Shown here: positions 58,072 to 64,000 of the stretch, piece by piece
Layout: the number at the start of each line of letters is the position of its first letter
Numbering within the stretch: the first letter of the stretch is position 1
Origin: Aurantiacibacter rhizosphaerae
GTDB lineage: Bacteria; Pseudomonadota; Alphaproteobacteria; Sphingomonadales; Sphingomonadaceae
Assembly: GCF_009807005.1 (NCBI RefSeq)
Contig: NZ_WUBR01000002.1
Coordinates: 124,001-188,000, forward strand
Direction: 5' to 3'
DNA length: 64,000 nucleotides
Notes under the pieces: generated by a model
Seen by the model: only the letters and a program-made list of their open reading frames with translations
Told to the model about the DNA's origin: nothing
The model's database searches: none
Position numbers and translations under genes: made by a program

Positions 58072-60645
58072 CTAGTCGCGCAGCCGGTCTATCGCTTGCG
58101 CCATCGCCACGTACAGTTTGCCCATGTCGCTGGATAGCAGGGTCACCGCCATGGCGTGCCCATCGCGCGTCGCCAGTATGTTGCGCAACATGGCCTCGAA
58201 GTCGTGAATGTAGCGGTTCACCGTCTCACGGAACTCGGCATCTTCGGAGTAGATCGCGCTGACCTGGCGGGCGTCGTGCTTGTCCAGAAGGCGCACGGCA
58301 CGGCGGGTGAAAATGCCGCGATCACCGCGCAGGTAATGCGCCCATTGCGTGTCGCCGATGTCGTTATCGAATGCCTTGGCAATATCGATTGAGCTGGAAT
58401 TCAGCGCCTCTGTAATCAGGGCCATGCGCCGGGCGAAATCACTATCGACGTTCTCTTCGGCCTTCTCGCGGGCGTATTCCACGCGTTGTTCCAGATTGGC
58501 CGCAAGATCATTGATGCGGGAAAGTTGCTCCCGCAGCAGCTGCGCAGTTTCGCGTCCAGCCTCATCCGCGCGGTTTGTCGCCTGCTCCAGCTCTGCGATC
58601 GTCTCCTTCGCATGGCGGCGCATGGCTTTGGCCAACTGATCGCGGCTAGCCTCGGCAACCTGATCGGCCAATGCGTTGACGGCCTCGGTCTGCTCTTCAC
58701 GCAGGTTTTCGAGGACAGAGGCAGAGGCCGCGCTCAGCATGTCGATCGCGCTGCGCAGTTCTTGAGAGGTGCGCTCTGCAACACGTTCCGTCTCGGTAGC
58801 GACGGCAGAGAGCTGGTCTTCCAGCTCCTTCATTTGATCCAGCGAAGCTGTGCCGGATTCGCGCGATTTATCCAACTGGCCGGCAAGATTGCTGCCGCGC
58901 GTCTCTGCATCTTCGATCAGCCTGTGCAGTTCGCGAGCGGTCGTGCCGAAAGAATTGAGGCGCGTTTCAGCGCCCGCCACTGCATCTGACAGCGCCCCTT
59001 CGGAATGATCCGCGCTGGAGCGGATGATTTCGAGCAGGCGCACGCTGTCATCCGTCATGCGGCCCAGGAAGGTGGCGCTTTCGTTCAGCACGTTCCGGTT
59101 CTGCGCCAGGCGATCAGACAGTGTCCCCGCAGCGTCCGCCACTTTGGTGCCGGTTTCATCGGCCTGCGTGCCAAGCTGCGCGATCTCCGTGTCGATGGCA
59201 GAGAGGCGTCCGGCAAGGGCTTCACCTTGCTCTGCCAGACCCGCGACATGTGCCAGATGCTCTTTCTGGCGATCGGCAATACGCTGATCGAATTCCAGAA
59301 TGCGCTGCTCAAGCGCGGCAAGCGCGTCATGCTGGCTTTCCTCGCTGGCCTGACGCCTGCGGGCGAAATCGTCGTCAAAGGCGGCCATGCTGCTGGCGAG
59401 CCGTTGGTCCACCCTGCTGGCCTCGTCATTCAGGGCGACAAGCCGCATCCGGGCATTGGTCATCGCCGATTCGTCCAGCTTCACGACACCGTCGAGAACT
59501 TCCTTCATCCGGTCTTCCAGCGCGGTGATCGCCTTAGACCAACGCTCGGCCGCCTCTGCCTGTCCGCCATCCATGGTCTCGACCAGCTCTTCACCCTCGA
59601 TACGCAGGGCCGAGAGGCGCTCGCGCATAGCCGTTGCCGCCGCGGCTTCCCTTGCATGCAAGGCTTCGGCGTCATCGCGCATCTGGCGGGCCAGCCCCTC
59701 CGATCGGGAGGCAATGGCGTCAAAGGCGCGCTCTTCGGCTGCCTCCAGCTCCCGGCGGAATTCATCGCTGTTGACCCGCAGACGTTCAAAGCGTTGCCCG
59801 GCAAGATCGCCCAGTGCGACAATCTGTTTTTCGAAGGATGCAAGCGTGGCGTCCACCTTCTCGCCAATCTGTGCGACATGCGCTTCGCCGGTCTCGTTGA
59901 AACCGTTCAGCCGTTCGAAGGCAGATGCAAGCTTGTCCACCCGATCCTGTGCGGACTGGCCGGTGCCGCCAAGCTGGTTGTTCATATCGCGCGCGGCGTT
60001 GGTCAGCACGGGCAGCTGATCTCGCAGCCGCTCCATATTCCCCACGGCCGTTTCGCTGACATGGCCGATGCTTTCCACCTGGGCGGAATTGTCACGGACA
60101 AGATCCTGCAATCGATCCGCATTGGTGGAAATACGCTCCACCGCGACACGGCCAAGAGACTCCAGATCGCGGGATTGGGATTCGATAAAGTCCCGCGCCA
60201 GGGCAAGTTCGCGGTTCACGGCGTGGAGTCGGCTTTCCAGCTGCGTAGATTCATGCGCCAGGGCGCGCGCTGCATCGGTGAAGCGATTGGCTTCGCGCCG
60301 GCTGTTGCGCATGGCGATCAGGTAGATGCCCATCAGAAGGATCAGCGGCACGGACCACTGCACGATCCAGTCTATCCACTGGCTGGCAGACGCGCCGGCG
60401 GCCATCGCCGGAAATTGCGCCCAGACAAAGAATATCGTCCAGGCAACAGCTGCAGCTACAGCCAATGCAGGGGCGATCCAGGTACCGCGCGGCCTCTCCG
60501 GCTCGTCCTCCCACACATCCTCTTCATACACCTCGTCAACGGAGGTTTCGTAGACTTCGTCCTCACTCACATCGAAGGCGGAATCCTCGATGGGATCGGC
60601 GGCAGTATCGTCCTGCGAAGGGACCAGGTTTTTCCAGCGGCTCAT
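58072..60645 (-). CDS. large membrane-anchored coiled-coil protein of unknown function
   Basis: An 857-residue protein. An acidic N-terminus (about 1-52) with a repeated DEVYE-type motif is followed by two transmembrane helices (58-78 and 94-112), and then by some 700 residues of Glu/Ala/Arg/Asp-rich sequence that reads as long coiled coil, with heptads such as ALEQRILEFDQRIADRQ. The last ~120 residues look globular. The pattern resembles membrane-bound scaffold or polar-tether proteins, and remotely chemoreceptor-type coiled coils, but I see no known domain. It is convergent to the DUF1467 gene and divergent from the next one. Confidence 0.75.
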   Translation of the reverse strand: MSRWKNLVPSQDDTAADPIEDSAFDVSEDEVYETSVDEVYEEDVWEDEPERPRGTWIAPALAVAAAVAWTIFFVWAQFPAMAAGASASQWIDWIVQWSVPLILLMGIYLIAMRNSRREANRFTDAARALAHESTQLESRLHAVNRELALARDFIESQSRDLESLGRVAVERISTNADRLQDLVRDNSAQVESIGHVSETAVGNMERLRDQLPVLTNAARDMNNQLGGTGQSAQDRVDKLASAFERLNGFNETGEAHVAQIGEKVDATLASFEKQIVALGDLAGQRFERLRVNSDEFRRELEAAEERAFDAIASRSEGLARQMRDDAEALHAREAAAATAMRERLSALRIEGEELVETMDGGQAEAAERWSKAITALEDRMKEVLDGVVKLDESAMTNARMRLVALNDEASRVDQRLASSMAAFDDDFARRRQASEESQHDALAALEQRILEFDQRIADRQKEHLAHVAGLAEQGEALAGRLSAIDTEIAQLGTQADETGTKVADAAGTLSDRLAQNRNVLNESATFLGRMTDDSVRLLEIIRSSADHSEGALSDAVAGAETRLNSFGTTARELHRLIEDAETRGSNLAGQLDKSRESGTASLDQMKELEDQLSAVATETERVAERTSQELRSAIDMLSAASASVLENLREEQTEAVNALADQVAEASRDQLAKAMRRHAKETIAELEQATNRADEAGRETAQLLREQLSRINDLAANLEQRVEYAREKAEENVDSDFARRMALITEALNSSSIDIAKAFDNDIGDTQWAHYLRGDRGIFTRRAVRLLDKHDARQVSAIYSEDAEFRETVNRYIHDFEAMLRNILATRDGHAMAVTLLSSDMGKLYVAMAQAIDRLRD

Positions 60646-60783: not shown

Positions 60784-61962
60784 ATGGATGCACCAGTGGA
60801 ATTTCTTGCCATGCGCGCCGCGCTGATCTCTCTCCCGCAGCCGGGTGAAGGGGATTTGCCATCGATCGCTGGCAAATCGCTGGCGCAGCGGCAATTGATG
60901 TTCGCGCGCGAGGCAGGGTGCGACTGCATAATCGCGCATGGAGGCGGGGCATCGCAGGATGGGATCGCCTTGCGCCATGCGGCAGAAAAGCTGGGGTTGA
61001 AATTCCAGGTTATCACCAGTGGCCATGCCTTGCCCGGCATTATCGGGGATGCTGACAGCCTGATGGTGCTGCAACCCGGCCTGCTGCCCGAATCGCCCAC
61101 CGCACTGGACCTGCTTCGTGCCGAAGGGGACCGTATCCTGATGGTTTCCGCCGGTCCGGGGGCCAGCGCCGGGCTGGAGCGGATTGATCTTGATCGCGCG
61201 TGGGCGGGGGCGCTTACGATGCCGGGCCGCTGGCTGGGCAAGCTTGCCGATTTGCCGGAGGATATTGCACCTCACGGTGCCCTGCTGCGCATAGCCTTGC
61301 AGCAACGCCTGCCCGAAGCGCGCCTTGCCGATAGCATGCTGGATGATGGCAGGTGGACGCTGATCGCCTCCGACGATGCGGCGAGCGCCGTGGCAAGCGA
61401 CTGGCAGCGCAGCCATCTGGGCGAAGTGGCGCCTGGCGCAGTTTCGCGCTGGCTGGGCAATGCGCTGGTGCGGGCTGCGGGCACGCGCATGCTCGACACG
61501 CCCTATGCGCGGCCCGCCTTGCTGTTGCTTTGCGCAATTCTGCTGGGCGGCGGCGTTGCAGCGGGGCTTTTCGAACGTCCGGTTCTCGGCTTTTTCCTCA
61601 TTGCGCTTAGCGTGCCCGTGCTGGAAGCTTTTTTGGCCCTGTCACGCCTGTTGGTGGCCCCTTTTGGCCGGATCAGGCGCTTGCCCTGGCTGCGCATGGG
61701 GATCGACGCGGCGCTGCTGGCCGTTGGTATCATGGCAATCGACAGCCTGTTTCATCGCAGCATCTTTCCGCCCGTGGTTCTGGTCGCATCGCTGTTCCTG
61801 CTGGATCGTCGCACCGTGCCGGAATGGCTGGAACCCTTGCGCGACAGGATGCTGATCGCTGGCGTTATCGGCTTGCTGGCGCTGTTCATCACGCCGGAAC
61901 TGGCGATAATGCTGGTGGGTCTGCTGGTGCTTGCGGCCAATATCATGCTGCCACGCAGATAA
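60784..61962 (+). CDS. nucleotidyltransferase-like domain fused to a membrane domain
   Basis: A 392-residue protein in two parts. Residues ~15-215 resemble a MobA-type GT-A domain (GKSLAQRQLMFAREAGCDCIIAHG, then DLDRAWAGALTMPG), but the usual glycine-rich N-terminal LAGGxSxRM-type loop is reduced. Residues ~240-390 form five or six hydrophobic helices. In known fusions of this type the membrane part is a CDP-alcohol phosphotransferase with a D-x2-D-G-x2-A-R motif; I do not find that motif here. So it may be an inactive or new variant. It is followed by the helical gene at 36 bases and then by the kinase-like gene. Confidence 0.7.
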   Translation: MDAPVEFLAMRAALISLPQPGEGDLPSIAGKSLAQRQLMFAREAGCDCIIAHGGGASQDGIALRHAAEKLGLKFQVITSGHALPGIIGDADSLMVLQPGLLPESPTALDLLRAEGDRILMVSAGPGASAGLERIDLDRAWAGALTMPGRWLGKLADLPEDIAPHGALLRIALQQRLPEARLADSMLDDGRWTLIASDDAASAVASDWQRSHLGEVAPGAVSRWLGNALVRAAGTRMLDTPYARPALLLLCAILLGGGVAAGLFERPVLGFFLIALSVPVLEAFLALSRLLVAPFGRIRRLPWLRMGIDAALLAVGIMAIDSLFHRSIFPPVVLVASLFLLDRRTVPEWLEPLRDRMLIAGVIGLLALFITPELAIMLVGLLVLAANIMLPRR

Positions 61963-61997: not shown

Positions 61998-62957
61998 ATG
62001 AACGACACGAACACCACCGGGCAATCTGCCACCAATGTTGAGGACATGTTGCGCGGTGAGCTGGCGCAGGGTGATGTCATCCTGTCGACCGCGCGCCCGA
62101 TATTGCGTCATCTGCTGGCGAATGATGACCATGCGCTGTTCAATGACGAGGTTATTGCCAAGATACGCGGCATGATGGGCCACCTTGCCCGCCAACTGCT
62201 TTTCAAGCTGGCGGAAGTGGTTGCGAAAGAAGCGCAGAGCGAATTCGTGGACGCGCGGCAGGATCAGCTCGCTACCCTGTTGCTGGAAGACACCGCGTTC
62301 CTTGGCCACGCCCATGCGCTCTCGATCGAGGCTCAGCTTGCCGATCGCCTGAACTCTCGCAGCGGGATTGACCCGGTGCTGTCCCCGCTGTTGCAGGAAC
62401 TGGCCGCATCGAAGGATGAGATGCAGGCAGCGGCGGCCATGCGCGTGGTTGCGGCGCAGGCGCGCTTCATGCAGCACCAGCGACGGATGGAACTGCCTCT
62501 GGCAGAACTGCCCGCCGAATTGTTTCATGCCGCTACCAAGGCCTTGAAAAACAGCCAGACCGATTATTCGGCAGAAGCGCAATCCGTGTGTGATCGGCTG
62601 CGTAGCGAATATAGCGAAAGCGATCGCCGCGTCGGGCAGATTACGCGCCTGGTGATGGCCATGGGCAGCACCGCCACCCGCGCCCTGGCCGTGGACCATG
62701 CCGGCCTTTCCGTATTCCTGACGGCGCTCTACATGGCATCGGAGCAGGATCGGGATGTGGTCGTCCTCTCCCTTGGAGAAAACCAGTGTGCACGCCTCGC
62801 ACTATCCCTGCGCGCAGCGGGGCTGGGGCAGAGCGCCGTGGAGGAGCAATTTCTTTACCTTCATCCCGACATCACTCTGCCAGAAGGTTTCGACATGCTG
62901 CGTGCAGACCGTGCCGCTGCCTTGCTGACCTCTGCCGCGCCGGGACTGGCAGGCTGA
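61998..62957 (+). CDS. all-helical protein of unknown function
   Basis: A 319-residue cytoplasmic protein with no signal peptide or membrane helix, Leu/Ala-rich, reading as ten or more amphipathic helices (for example ILSTARPILRHLLANDDHAL, LPAELFHAATKALKNSQTDYS). It has some likeness to the helical-repeat DUF2336 proteins of alphaproteobacteria, but I cannot confirm it. It lies one base before the kinase-like gene and 36 bases after the nucleotidyltransferase-like gene, so the three probably form a unit and it may be the partner of the kinase-like protein. Confidence 0.7.
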   Translation: MNDTNTTGQSATNVEDMLRGELAQGDVILSTARPILRHLLANDDHALFNDEVIAKIRGMMGHLARQLLFKLAEVVAKEAQSEFVDARQDQLATLLLEDTAFLGHAHALSIEAQLADRLNSRSGIDPVLSPLLQELAASKDEMQAAAAMRVVAAQARFMQHQRRMELPLAELPAELFHAATKALKNSQTDYSAEAQSVCDRLRSEYSESDRRVGQITRLVMAMGSTATRALAVDHAGLSVFLTALYMASEQDRDVVVLSLGENQCARLALSLRAAGLGQSAVEEQFLYLHPDITLPEGFDMLRADRAAALLTSAAPGLAG

Positions 62958-62958
62958 G

Positions 62959-64000
62959 ATGATGTCAGCCCCTGCATCCATCATCGCGCGCGCGCGTACC
63001 GACGCGCAGGATCGCCTTGTCGAGGCCGATGAGCCGCTGGCAGGCTTTCACCTGCGCGCGGGCGGTGAATTGCCCGGCCCGCTGGTAACGCCTGCGCTGA
63101 TTGAACTGGTGCGCAAGACGCGCGTCTATGGCCTGCGCATGGCGCGGGTCATCCATGCGCAGGACGAGAGCGAACAGATCACGGCCTGGGTGGAGGTGGA
63201 GCCGGCCGGTAAGGGCGTGTCCATCGCCATCGCCGATTGGCAGACCGAAGCGATCAGGGCACCCTCCAAGGCTGACGCATCACGCGACAGGCTGGCACTG
63301 GTGCGGCAAATCGCCGGATTGAGTGCGCGGCTTGGCCCGTCGCAGGAGTTGCTGGCGGTTGATTGTGATAGCGATGATCTTTCCGAACTTGCCTCAAAGA
63401 TGCAGGCAGGAATTGGCGAAGCGTGGACCAGCTTCATCACACCCGGCGGCGGCAAGAGCCACAAACCCCTGCACAAACCCATGCACTGGCGCCTGCTGGA
63501 CGGCGCAACAGTCGATATCCCTGGCTCTGCGCGGAGTTGGACCGTCAGCCTTGTGCCACTGGGCAAGCCGCAGCCGGGCAGCGACGGCTTCGAACTTTAC
63601 CTTTCACCGCAGCAACCGCTGCCTGGCGCCGCGCCGAGCAAAAGCGGGGAGGGTGACCGGACAAGCGGCATCGGCCGCGATATCGCGCCTGTGTTGCGTC
63701 AGCCCGTCAGCCGCATCATTGCCAATGCGGAAACCATCCGCACACAGTTGGCCGGACCGCTGGCCGATGAATACAGCAACTATGCGGCCGATATTGCCAC
63801 GGCGGGCGAACACCTGCTGGCGCTGATCGACGATCTTACCACGCTGGATCTGGTGGAGGATGATCAGTTTGTCACTGCGCCCGACATGATCGATCTTGGC
63901 GATGTCGCCCGCCGTGCCGTGGGCATCCTTGGCGTGCGTGCGGGAGAGCGGGGCATCGTGCTTGACGCTCCCAAATCGGCGGACAGCGTGCCCGCGATTG
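62959..64000 (+). CDS. histidine-kinase-like protein lacking the phosphoacceptor His (partial)
   Basis: The frame is open from ATG 62959 to the window end (347 codons). The N-terminal ~230 residues are a sensor-like region without membrane helix. A HisKA-type helix pair follows (about 240-300; RQPVSRIIANAETIRTQL, then AGEHLLALIDDLTTLDLVE), which fits the dimerisation domain of histidine kinases. In place of the conserved His of the H-box (H-E-x-R-T-P) the sequence reads P-V-L-R-Q-P, with Pro244 at the His position. The ATP-binding domain lies beyond the window except for its beginning. It may be a pseudokinase like DivL, which has Tyr at that site, or use another residue. Two adjacent ATGs may serve as start. 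Confidence 0.75.
   Translation, partial: MMSAPASIIARARTDAQDRLVEADEPLAGFHLRAGGELPGPLVTPALIELVRKTRVYGLRMARVIHAQDESEQITAWVEVEPAGKGVSIAIADWQTEAIRAPSKADASRDRLALVRQIAGLSARLGPSQELLAVDCDSDDLSELASKMQAGIGEAWTSFITPGGGKSHKPLHKPMHWRLLDGATVDIPGSARSWTVSLVPLGKPQPGSDGFELYLSPQQPLPGAAPSKSGEGDRTSGIGRDIAPVLRQPVSRIIANAETIRTQLAGPLADEYSNYAADIATAGEHLLALIDDLTTLDLVEDDQFVTAPDMIDLGDVARRAVGILGVRAGERGIVLDAPKSADSVPAI

Follow-up and report, generated by a model that had tools for sequence, protein, structure and literature searches.

Natural kinases divided between two proteins are known from the CheA type. In Rhodobacter sphaeroides neither CheA3 nor CheA4 autophosphorylates alone, a mixture of the two does so, and one of them is without the phosphorylatable domain and the other without the catalytic domain (PMC3591291). 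Hik36 and Hik43 of Synechocystis are a cheA homologue split into two genes, which lie at distant places in the genome (PMC7656254). In Corynebacterium glutamicum the paralogous kinases ChrS and HrrS form a heterodimer in which one CA domain is dead, owing to a frameshift that arose by laboratory evolution, and the partner keeps all functions (PMC9491836). Modelling predicts that ultrasensitive or bistable responses can arise when a bifunctional kinase is split, and a count of HisKA proteins that have no HATPase and might be split kinases reached 711, with no partners named in the excerpts of that paper (PMC3591291). In the excerpts of the open-licence literature that were read, the natural split kinases were of the CheA type only, next to an in vitro split of EnvZ.

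Here we describe two HisKA-type proteins, A and B, and propose that they form a kinase of this kind. They resemble CheA3 and CheA4 in the division of acceptor and catalytic functions. However, the latter are CheA-type proteins (P1, P3-P4) from which whole domains are missing, whereas A and B are paralogues of similar layout that have lost residues and not domains, and are known here from sequence alone. They share with Hik36 and Hik43 the separate location of the two genes, but are HisKA-type proteins. With ChrS and HrrS they share paralogy and one inactive CA domain, but the losses in A and B are natural and each of the two is affected. A partner is here proposed, from genome evidence, for a candidate HisKA-type split kinase. 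No title or abstract describing the A/B pair was found in the open-licence literature on DivL in Sphingomonas, pseudo-histidine kinases and split or trans-phosphorylating HisKA proteins.

Protein A and its phosphoacceptor position

The gene for A lies at the end of the window, the 64,000-nucleotide stretch of DNA that was analysed. The features discussed here are located in Table 1.

Table 1. Location of proteins A and B and of the genes beside A (window positions unless a contig is named)
Feature	Position	Strand	Basis or occurrence
Protein A, first 347 of 464 residues in the window	62959..64000	+	Open reading frame; Pfam HisKA and HATPase_c; AlphaFold model of the L007 orthologue
Codon CCT of Pro244, phosphoacceptor position of the H-box	63688..63690	+	Sequence; column in 94 distinct orthologues
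Helical 319-aa gene, DUF2336 family, directly upstream of A	61998..62957	+	In 52 of 56 loci with A
Nucleotidyltransferase-like membrane gene	60784..61962	+	In 50 of 56 loci; retained where A is lost (G192, G202)
857-aa membrane-anchored coiled-coil gene, divergent, edge of the conserved locus	58072..60645	-	Open reading frame; in 50 of 56 loci
Protein B (L129), 613 aa, outside the window	G000:C4:135753-137594, including stop		One of 19 HisKA places; H-box LHELRTP

Within the window A consists of two PAS-like domains, the DHp hairpin and the start of the CA domain, and its frame is open to the window end. The full copy in the genome encodes 464 amino acids (L003:6959-8353), ends outside the window at L003:8353, which is G000:C2:188353, and has the layout PAS-PAS-HisKA-HATPase. 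Pfam HATPase_c matches A at 4e-28. The HisKA match is slightly below the cut-off and begins at residue 246, two residues past the H position. Among the NCBIfam families shown, nothing was above the curated cut-off for A, B or the DivL-like protein described below. An AlphaFold model of the L007 orthologue of A (Aurantiacibacter odishensis), made with 13 sequences (mean pLDDT 75, pTM 0.42), has its strands and helices in the order expected for a pair of PAS-like folds, a DHp hairpin and a CA domain. Its neighbours in the PDB are histidine kinases, including WalK, NifL, RetS, HK853 and DivL. The second structural match is NifL of Azotobacter (structure 9qq6), which like A combines PAS-PAS with a kinase-like core that includes an ATP-binding domain. 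NifL controls NifA by binding.

In the stretch 63670-63729 the codons atc ggc cgc gat atc gcg cct gtg ttg cgt cag ccc are translated as IGRDIAPVLRQP. Residue 244 is proline at the place where canonical relatives have SHELRTP. The profile alignment with B, which is gap-free from just before this position through the hairpin, sets Pro244 opposite the phosphoacceptor histidine of B. An earlier note on this DNA had recognised a HisKA-like protein with proline in place of the H-box histidine, and this was confirmed. Extension of the gene past the window, as the note had advised, gave a 464-residue protein with intact N, F, G1 and G2 boxes.

A was found (protein search, E<=1e-40) in 234 of 298 genomes of family f1, which we equate, from the named close relatives (Erythrobacter, Aurantiacibacter and others), with the broad GTDB concept of Sphingomonadaceae. 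The column of residue 244, which the note had proposed to align, holds P in 80 of 94 distinct sequences, R in 4, K in 3, S, A and G in 2 each and N in 1, with no histidine. In 116 loci plus the query, a redundant count since several loci are the same gene and from which L001 and L002 were left out, the numbers are P 103, R 4, K 3, S 2, A 2, G 2 and N 1. All 15 named loci from other assemblies (L004-L018) have proline. The acid adjoining the phosphoacceptor site is also gone (E or D in 0/94), and A thus has neither of the two H-box residues of an autophosphorylating HisKA kinase. The ATP site is kept almost without exception: N359, N363, GxGLG and R410 in all 94 sequences and DxGxG in 93. Arg410 presumably corresponds to a catalytic arginine of HK853. 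At E<=0.1, HATPase_c was matched by 45/45 members and HisKA, weakly, by 44/45.

The earlier note had named two findings that would overturn its reading, a sequencing error at the proline codon and a conserved histidine nearby. The former is excluded by the orthologues. As for the latter, the sole strongly conserved histidine is His285 (91/94), located in helix 2 of the DHp hairpin. A histidine is found there, besides a normal H-box, in each of the 25 His-bearing relatives from outside the family whose hairpins were read, so that His285 is an inherited residue.

In a class-wide sample of 289 genomes, matches to the A profile below 1e-100 occurred in four, all of them members of f1, and the next match was at 2.5e-63. 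Thirty loci from this search were read: the four f1 members are without the histidine, 25 of the other 26 have an H-box with histidine, and none was read for L161. Because these relatives outside f1 have the histidine, A descends from an ordinary His-bearing kinase with the FGPL-Y-Y-DI-SG-HLL hairpin, a type which we take to be PdhS/DivJ-like.

Five A-like proteins with histidine are present in deep-branching f1 genomes (G007, G012, G040, G052 and G056). That of G012 lies beside gltA and is a syntenic orthologue. The other four (L239, L240, L242 and L243, of G052, G056, G007 and G040) are PAS-PAS kinases similar to A that are not beside gltA; they may be a different paralogue, possibly an ancestor-like one. 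Two genomes negative for A by single-sequence search, G289 and G077, have a His-less A by profile search. In genus g6, where the A-like protein was read in G099 and G210 and not in G005 and G161, L252 (G210) and L257 (G099) are short His-less A-like open frames of 308 and 249 amino acids without PAS domains, and L252 is away from gltA. In G189 two adjacent frames match A (L118), with the best match confined to residues 199-455, so A may be broken or duplicated there.

Protein B and its co-occurrence with A

Protein B has an intact H-box and no HATPase match. Its acceptor residues are His390, Glu391 and Thr394. Histidine and glutamate are present in 71/71 sequences (70 loci plus the query), and the full His-Glu-x-x-Thr pattern in 67/67 distinct ones. 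In the same 67 the N-box asparagine is absent at both positions (0/67), as is GxGLG (0/67), and a DxGxG string occurs anywhere in residues 521-560 in 3. Pfam (E<=0.1) matched HisKA in 50/50 members of B and HATPase_c in 3/50, the best at 0.0097.

Profile comparison aligned residues 116-461 of A with 271-602 of B over 323 columns (probability 99.4%), with Pro244 facing His390. A and B are paralogues with opposite losses. Judged by sequence, one is an ATPase without an acceptor and the other an acceptor without an ATPase, as is expected of the partners in a split kinase. The two genes are unlinked, on contigs C2 and C4. In the class sample, B-profile matches below 1e-100 were confined to the same four f1 genomes as those of A, with the next at 3.5e-45. 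Both proteins carry HisKA, and Pfam scans found no CheA or Hpt domain in either; the P1/Hpt phosphoacceptor domain of the CheA architecture is absent from the pair.

Single-sequence searches (thresholds 1e-40 for A and 1e-10 for B), later refined with profile searches, found both genes in 229 of the 298 f1 genomes, A only in 5, B only in 15 and neither in 49. The five A-only assemblies have 140 to 540 contigs, and two of the five are 73% complete. N-terminal pieces of B were found in three of them (G156, G143 and G268) and none in G247 and G279.

The acceptor of B follows the presence of A. Of the genomes examined that have a His-less A, all 68 keep His-Glu in B: G289, G077 and 66 of the 67 genomes from which the 70 B loci come (the 67th being G192). 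B keeps His-Glu in only one of seven complete genomes that have B and no recognisable A (G027, G028, G046, G171, G192, G202 and G287). The histidine is replaced by aspartate in G046, G171 and G287. In G027 it is gone with much of the hairpin, and in G202 the hairpin is missing. B of G028 retains the histidine though A is gone, has arginine in place of the glutamate and a shortened hairpin. The exception is G192, where His-Glu is kept without a working A; here a C-terminal remnant of A of about 42 codons adjoins gltA and the DUF2336-family gene is gone. Apart from this remnant, A was not found beside gltA in any of the seven. An A-profile search to 1e-10 in these genomes listed many kinases, and each of 30 loci read had a His box or, in five cases, a DivL-type Tyr box.

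Fisher's test of 68/0 against 1/6 gives p = 3.5e-8, which overstates the evidence, as the seven genomes represent about three losses. This estimate follows from a tree of B without the hairpin, in which G046, G027, G028, G171 and G287 form one clade (support 0.99). A would thus have been lost about three times, twice with decay of the B acceptor and once recently. A and B appear mutually dependent in evolution, by their co-occurrence and by the decay of B in 6/7, with the one exception.

His-Glu is also kept in the B proteins of five incomplete genomes counted neither as A-bearing nor as A-less (G022, G082, G117, G152 and G177), of all four genus g6 genomes, and of G007, G012, G040 and G056, which have a His-bearing A-like protein.

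At profile level neither gene was found in G036 (genus g36), G053 and G129 (g53) and G182 (g43), genomes in which part of the kinase matches were read and the gltA locus was checked in G053 alone. The other sampled members of these genera (5, 4 and 5 for g36, g53 and g43) all have both. As a control, a DivL-type protein persists in G027, G046, G171, G287, G192, G182 and G129, so there is no across-the-board loss of such proteins; the loci read in G028, G202 and G036 did not include it, and none was read in G053.

The order of the losses is suggested by one syntenic case. The neighbour of gltA in G012, which has the DUF2336-family gene upstream of it, encodes a complete kinase with histidine, and B of the same genome has its histidine and no ATP site. 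Because of this combination, the ATP site of B seems to have been lost first and the histidine of A later.

A proposed split kinase and its alternatives

We consider it fairly probable that A and B are one HisKA-type kinase split over two full-length paralogues, with A phosphorylating the histidine of B in trans. A would supply the ATP-binding catalytic domain, having lost its own phosphoacceptor histidine and the adjacent acid, and B would supply the phosphoacceptor domain (His390, Glu391 and Thr394), having lost its own ATP site. The two may meet through their related DHp helices, and A might then transfer phosphate from ATP to His390. B would pass the phosphate to a response regulator or remove it from one, an exchange that the PAS domains and the DUF2336-family protein could tune.

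The functional coupling of A and B is well supported, and the trans-phosphorylation and the target regulator are inferred. What the joint loss shows is one pathway and not phosphoryl transfer; it is very likely that the two proteins share a pathway. We lean slightly towards the fuller account, a natural HisKA kinase split by reciprocal inactivation and fixed in most sampled genomes of the family, in which A is a dedicated trans-kinase and B a dedicated phosphoacceptor and phosphatase, the DUF2336-family protein is a third component lost with A, the ATP site of B decayed before the histidine of A, and the acceptor of B decays once A is gone. Against the split stand the small number of independent losses, the retention of His-Glu in B of G192 and of the histidine in B of G028, the lack of linkage, and the proline in helix 1, by which the hairpin of A may be distorted. 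The A-like proteins with histidine in deep branches also count against it, and owing to them the split does not apply strictly in every branch of the family. If the proposal is true, it would illustrate how complementary losses turn a dimeric kinase into an obligate hetero-kinase, would assign a function to one protein that resembles an ordinary kinase and another that resembles a degenerate one, and would link the DUF2336 family to two-component signalling.

The most serious alternative, which we think improbable though well worth weighing, is that A is an ATP-binding pseudokinase that works by allostery, as DivL does on CckA and NifL on NifA, and that its nucleotide-dependent changes govern B or a different partner with no phosphoryl group passed on by A. 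A is without the histidine, DivL and NifL are among the many kinases that its fold resembles, and co-occurrence with B fits this reading too. However, 93-94 of 94 sequences of A retain the ATP-site motifs. B, lacking an ATP site, must depend on some kinase for its phosphorylation, and in 6/7 genomes the acceptor of B is lost along with A.

The comparison with DivL itself was part of the earlier note. DivL has tyrosine at the H position, unlike A with its proline or other residue. A tyrosine is also found there in L122 (MSYEFRTP; G000:C2:69459-69662 and around), which is among the 19 places of the genome with HisKA at E<=1 and is a second His-less kinase-like protein beside A. The first PDB match of L122 is DivL, at 2.6e-38 with the next at 2.9e-27, and DivL is only seventh in rank among the matches of A. 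We therefore rejected A as the DivL orthologue, since this separate Tyr-type protein is present. DivL (structure 4q20) is, like A, an alphaproteobacterial HisKA/HATPase protein without the phosphoacceptor histidine, and is described in the excerpts as a pseudokinase required to trigger the kinase activity of CckA (PMC8116508). It provides a precedent for an allosteric A. Yet A has an evolutionary partner in B, and none is known for DivL. The presence of L122, the conserved ATP site and the way in which A tracks B speak against a DivL-like role, and a dedicated kinase half would fit A better than an allosteric pseudokinase.

A second alternative concerns B. An HExxT motif with a degenerate CA-like domain is an architecture like that of ChpT, and B could be a ChpT-like phosphotransferase or phosphatase fed by a receiver domain, with A only regulating B or sharing its pathway. 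The folds are near each other, and HPTransfase_C is matched by 15/45 members of A at E<=0.1. However, HPTransfase, with the C-terminal domain expected of a ChpT phosphotransferase, was absent among the families matched by 50 members of B at that threshold. A separate short protein of the same genome, L135, has a ChpT-like motif and is what we take to be the ChpT-like protein. This alternative leaves the full ATP site of A unexplained, and we regard it as quite unlikely.

It is far less likely still that A is a full kinase whose acceptor has moved and that it autophosphorylates elsewhere, for example on His285. This residue is conserved in 91/94 sequences, but it is present in 25/25 His-bearing outside relatives besides their H-box, and the acid next to the normal acceptor is also lost in A. 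We rejected it as an alternative acceptor because it is inherited. A sequencing error or decaying pseudogene, which a broken motif in one reading might indicate, is refuted by conservation and can be discarded, given an open frame in 234/298 genomes (E<=1e-40), no histidine in 94 distinct sequences and conserved ATP-site residues.

The genes beside A

In 56 loci the gene order is the divergent coiled-coil gene, an Hpt-like gene, the nucleotidyltransferase-like membrane gene, the DUF2336-family gene, A, and gltA in convergent orientation. The gltA gene was found in 50 of these loci and the Hpt-like gene in 38; for the other genes see Table 1. Some gaps in these counts are ends of contigs or of retrieved DNA. 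The earlier note had proposed a pseudokinase regulator conserved with the two genes upstream of it. The missing histidine and the synteny with both genes hold, and the analogy with DivL as the likely role is not supported. When the locus was scanned for promoters and terminators, the former gave 0 sites and the latter 3, numbers that shuffled sequences also reach.

One base separates the stop codon of the helical gene from the start of A. Pfam DUF2336 was matched by 12/25 aligned members of its family, and the copy in the window is without a match. The gene is gone together with A in G192 and G202. No PDB match to its fold was found at E<=0.001, and DUF2336 was found in no paper of the open-licence literature searched. 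A homology of this gene with the helical N-terminus of B was considered and is not supported (hhalign probability 0.7%).

The membrane gene has no Pfam match above the cut-off. It is probably not part of the kinase, because it is kept when A is lost.

The Hpt-like gene, for example at L378:2613-2921 (+) and L013:4055-4360 (+), was not found in the locus of the genome studied here. It is matched by Pfam Hpt in 16/34 members at E<=0.1 and is likewise without its histidine, having M, L, W, Q or other residues in 33/34 aligned sequences and H only in L011.

We treat the coiled-coil gene as a neighbour of A and make no claim that it is a component. Its 857-aa product has apparent membrane segments near the N-terminus and a long coiled coil, and may resemble the TipN-type polarity proteins.
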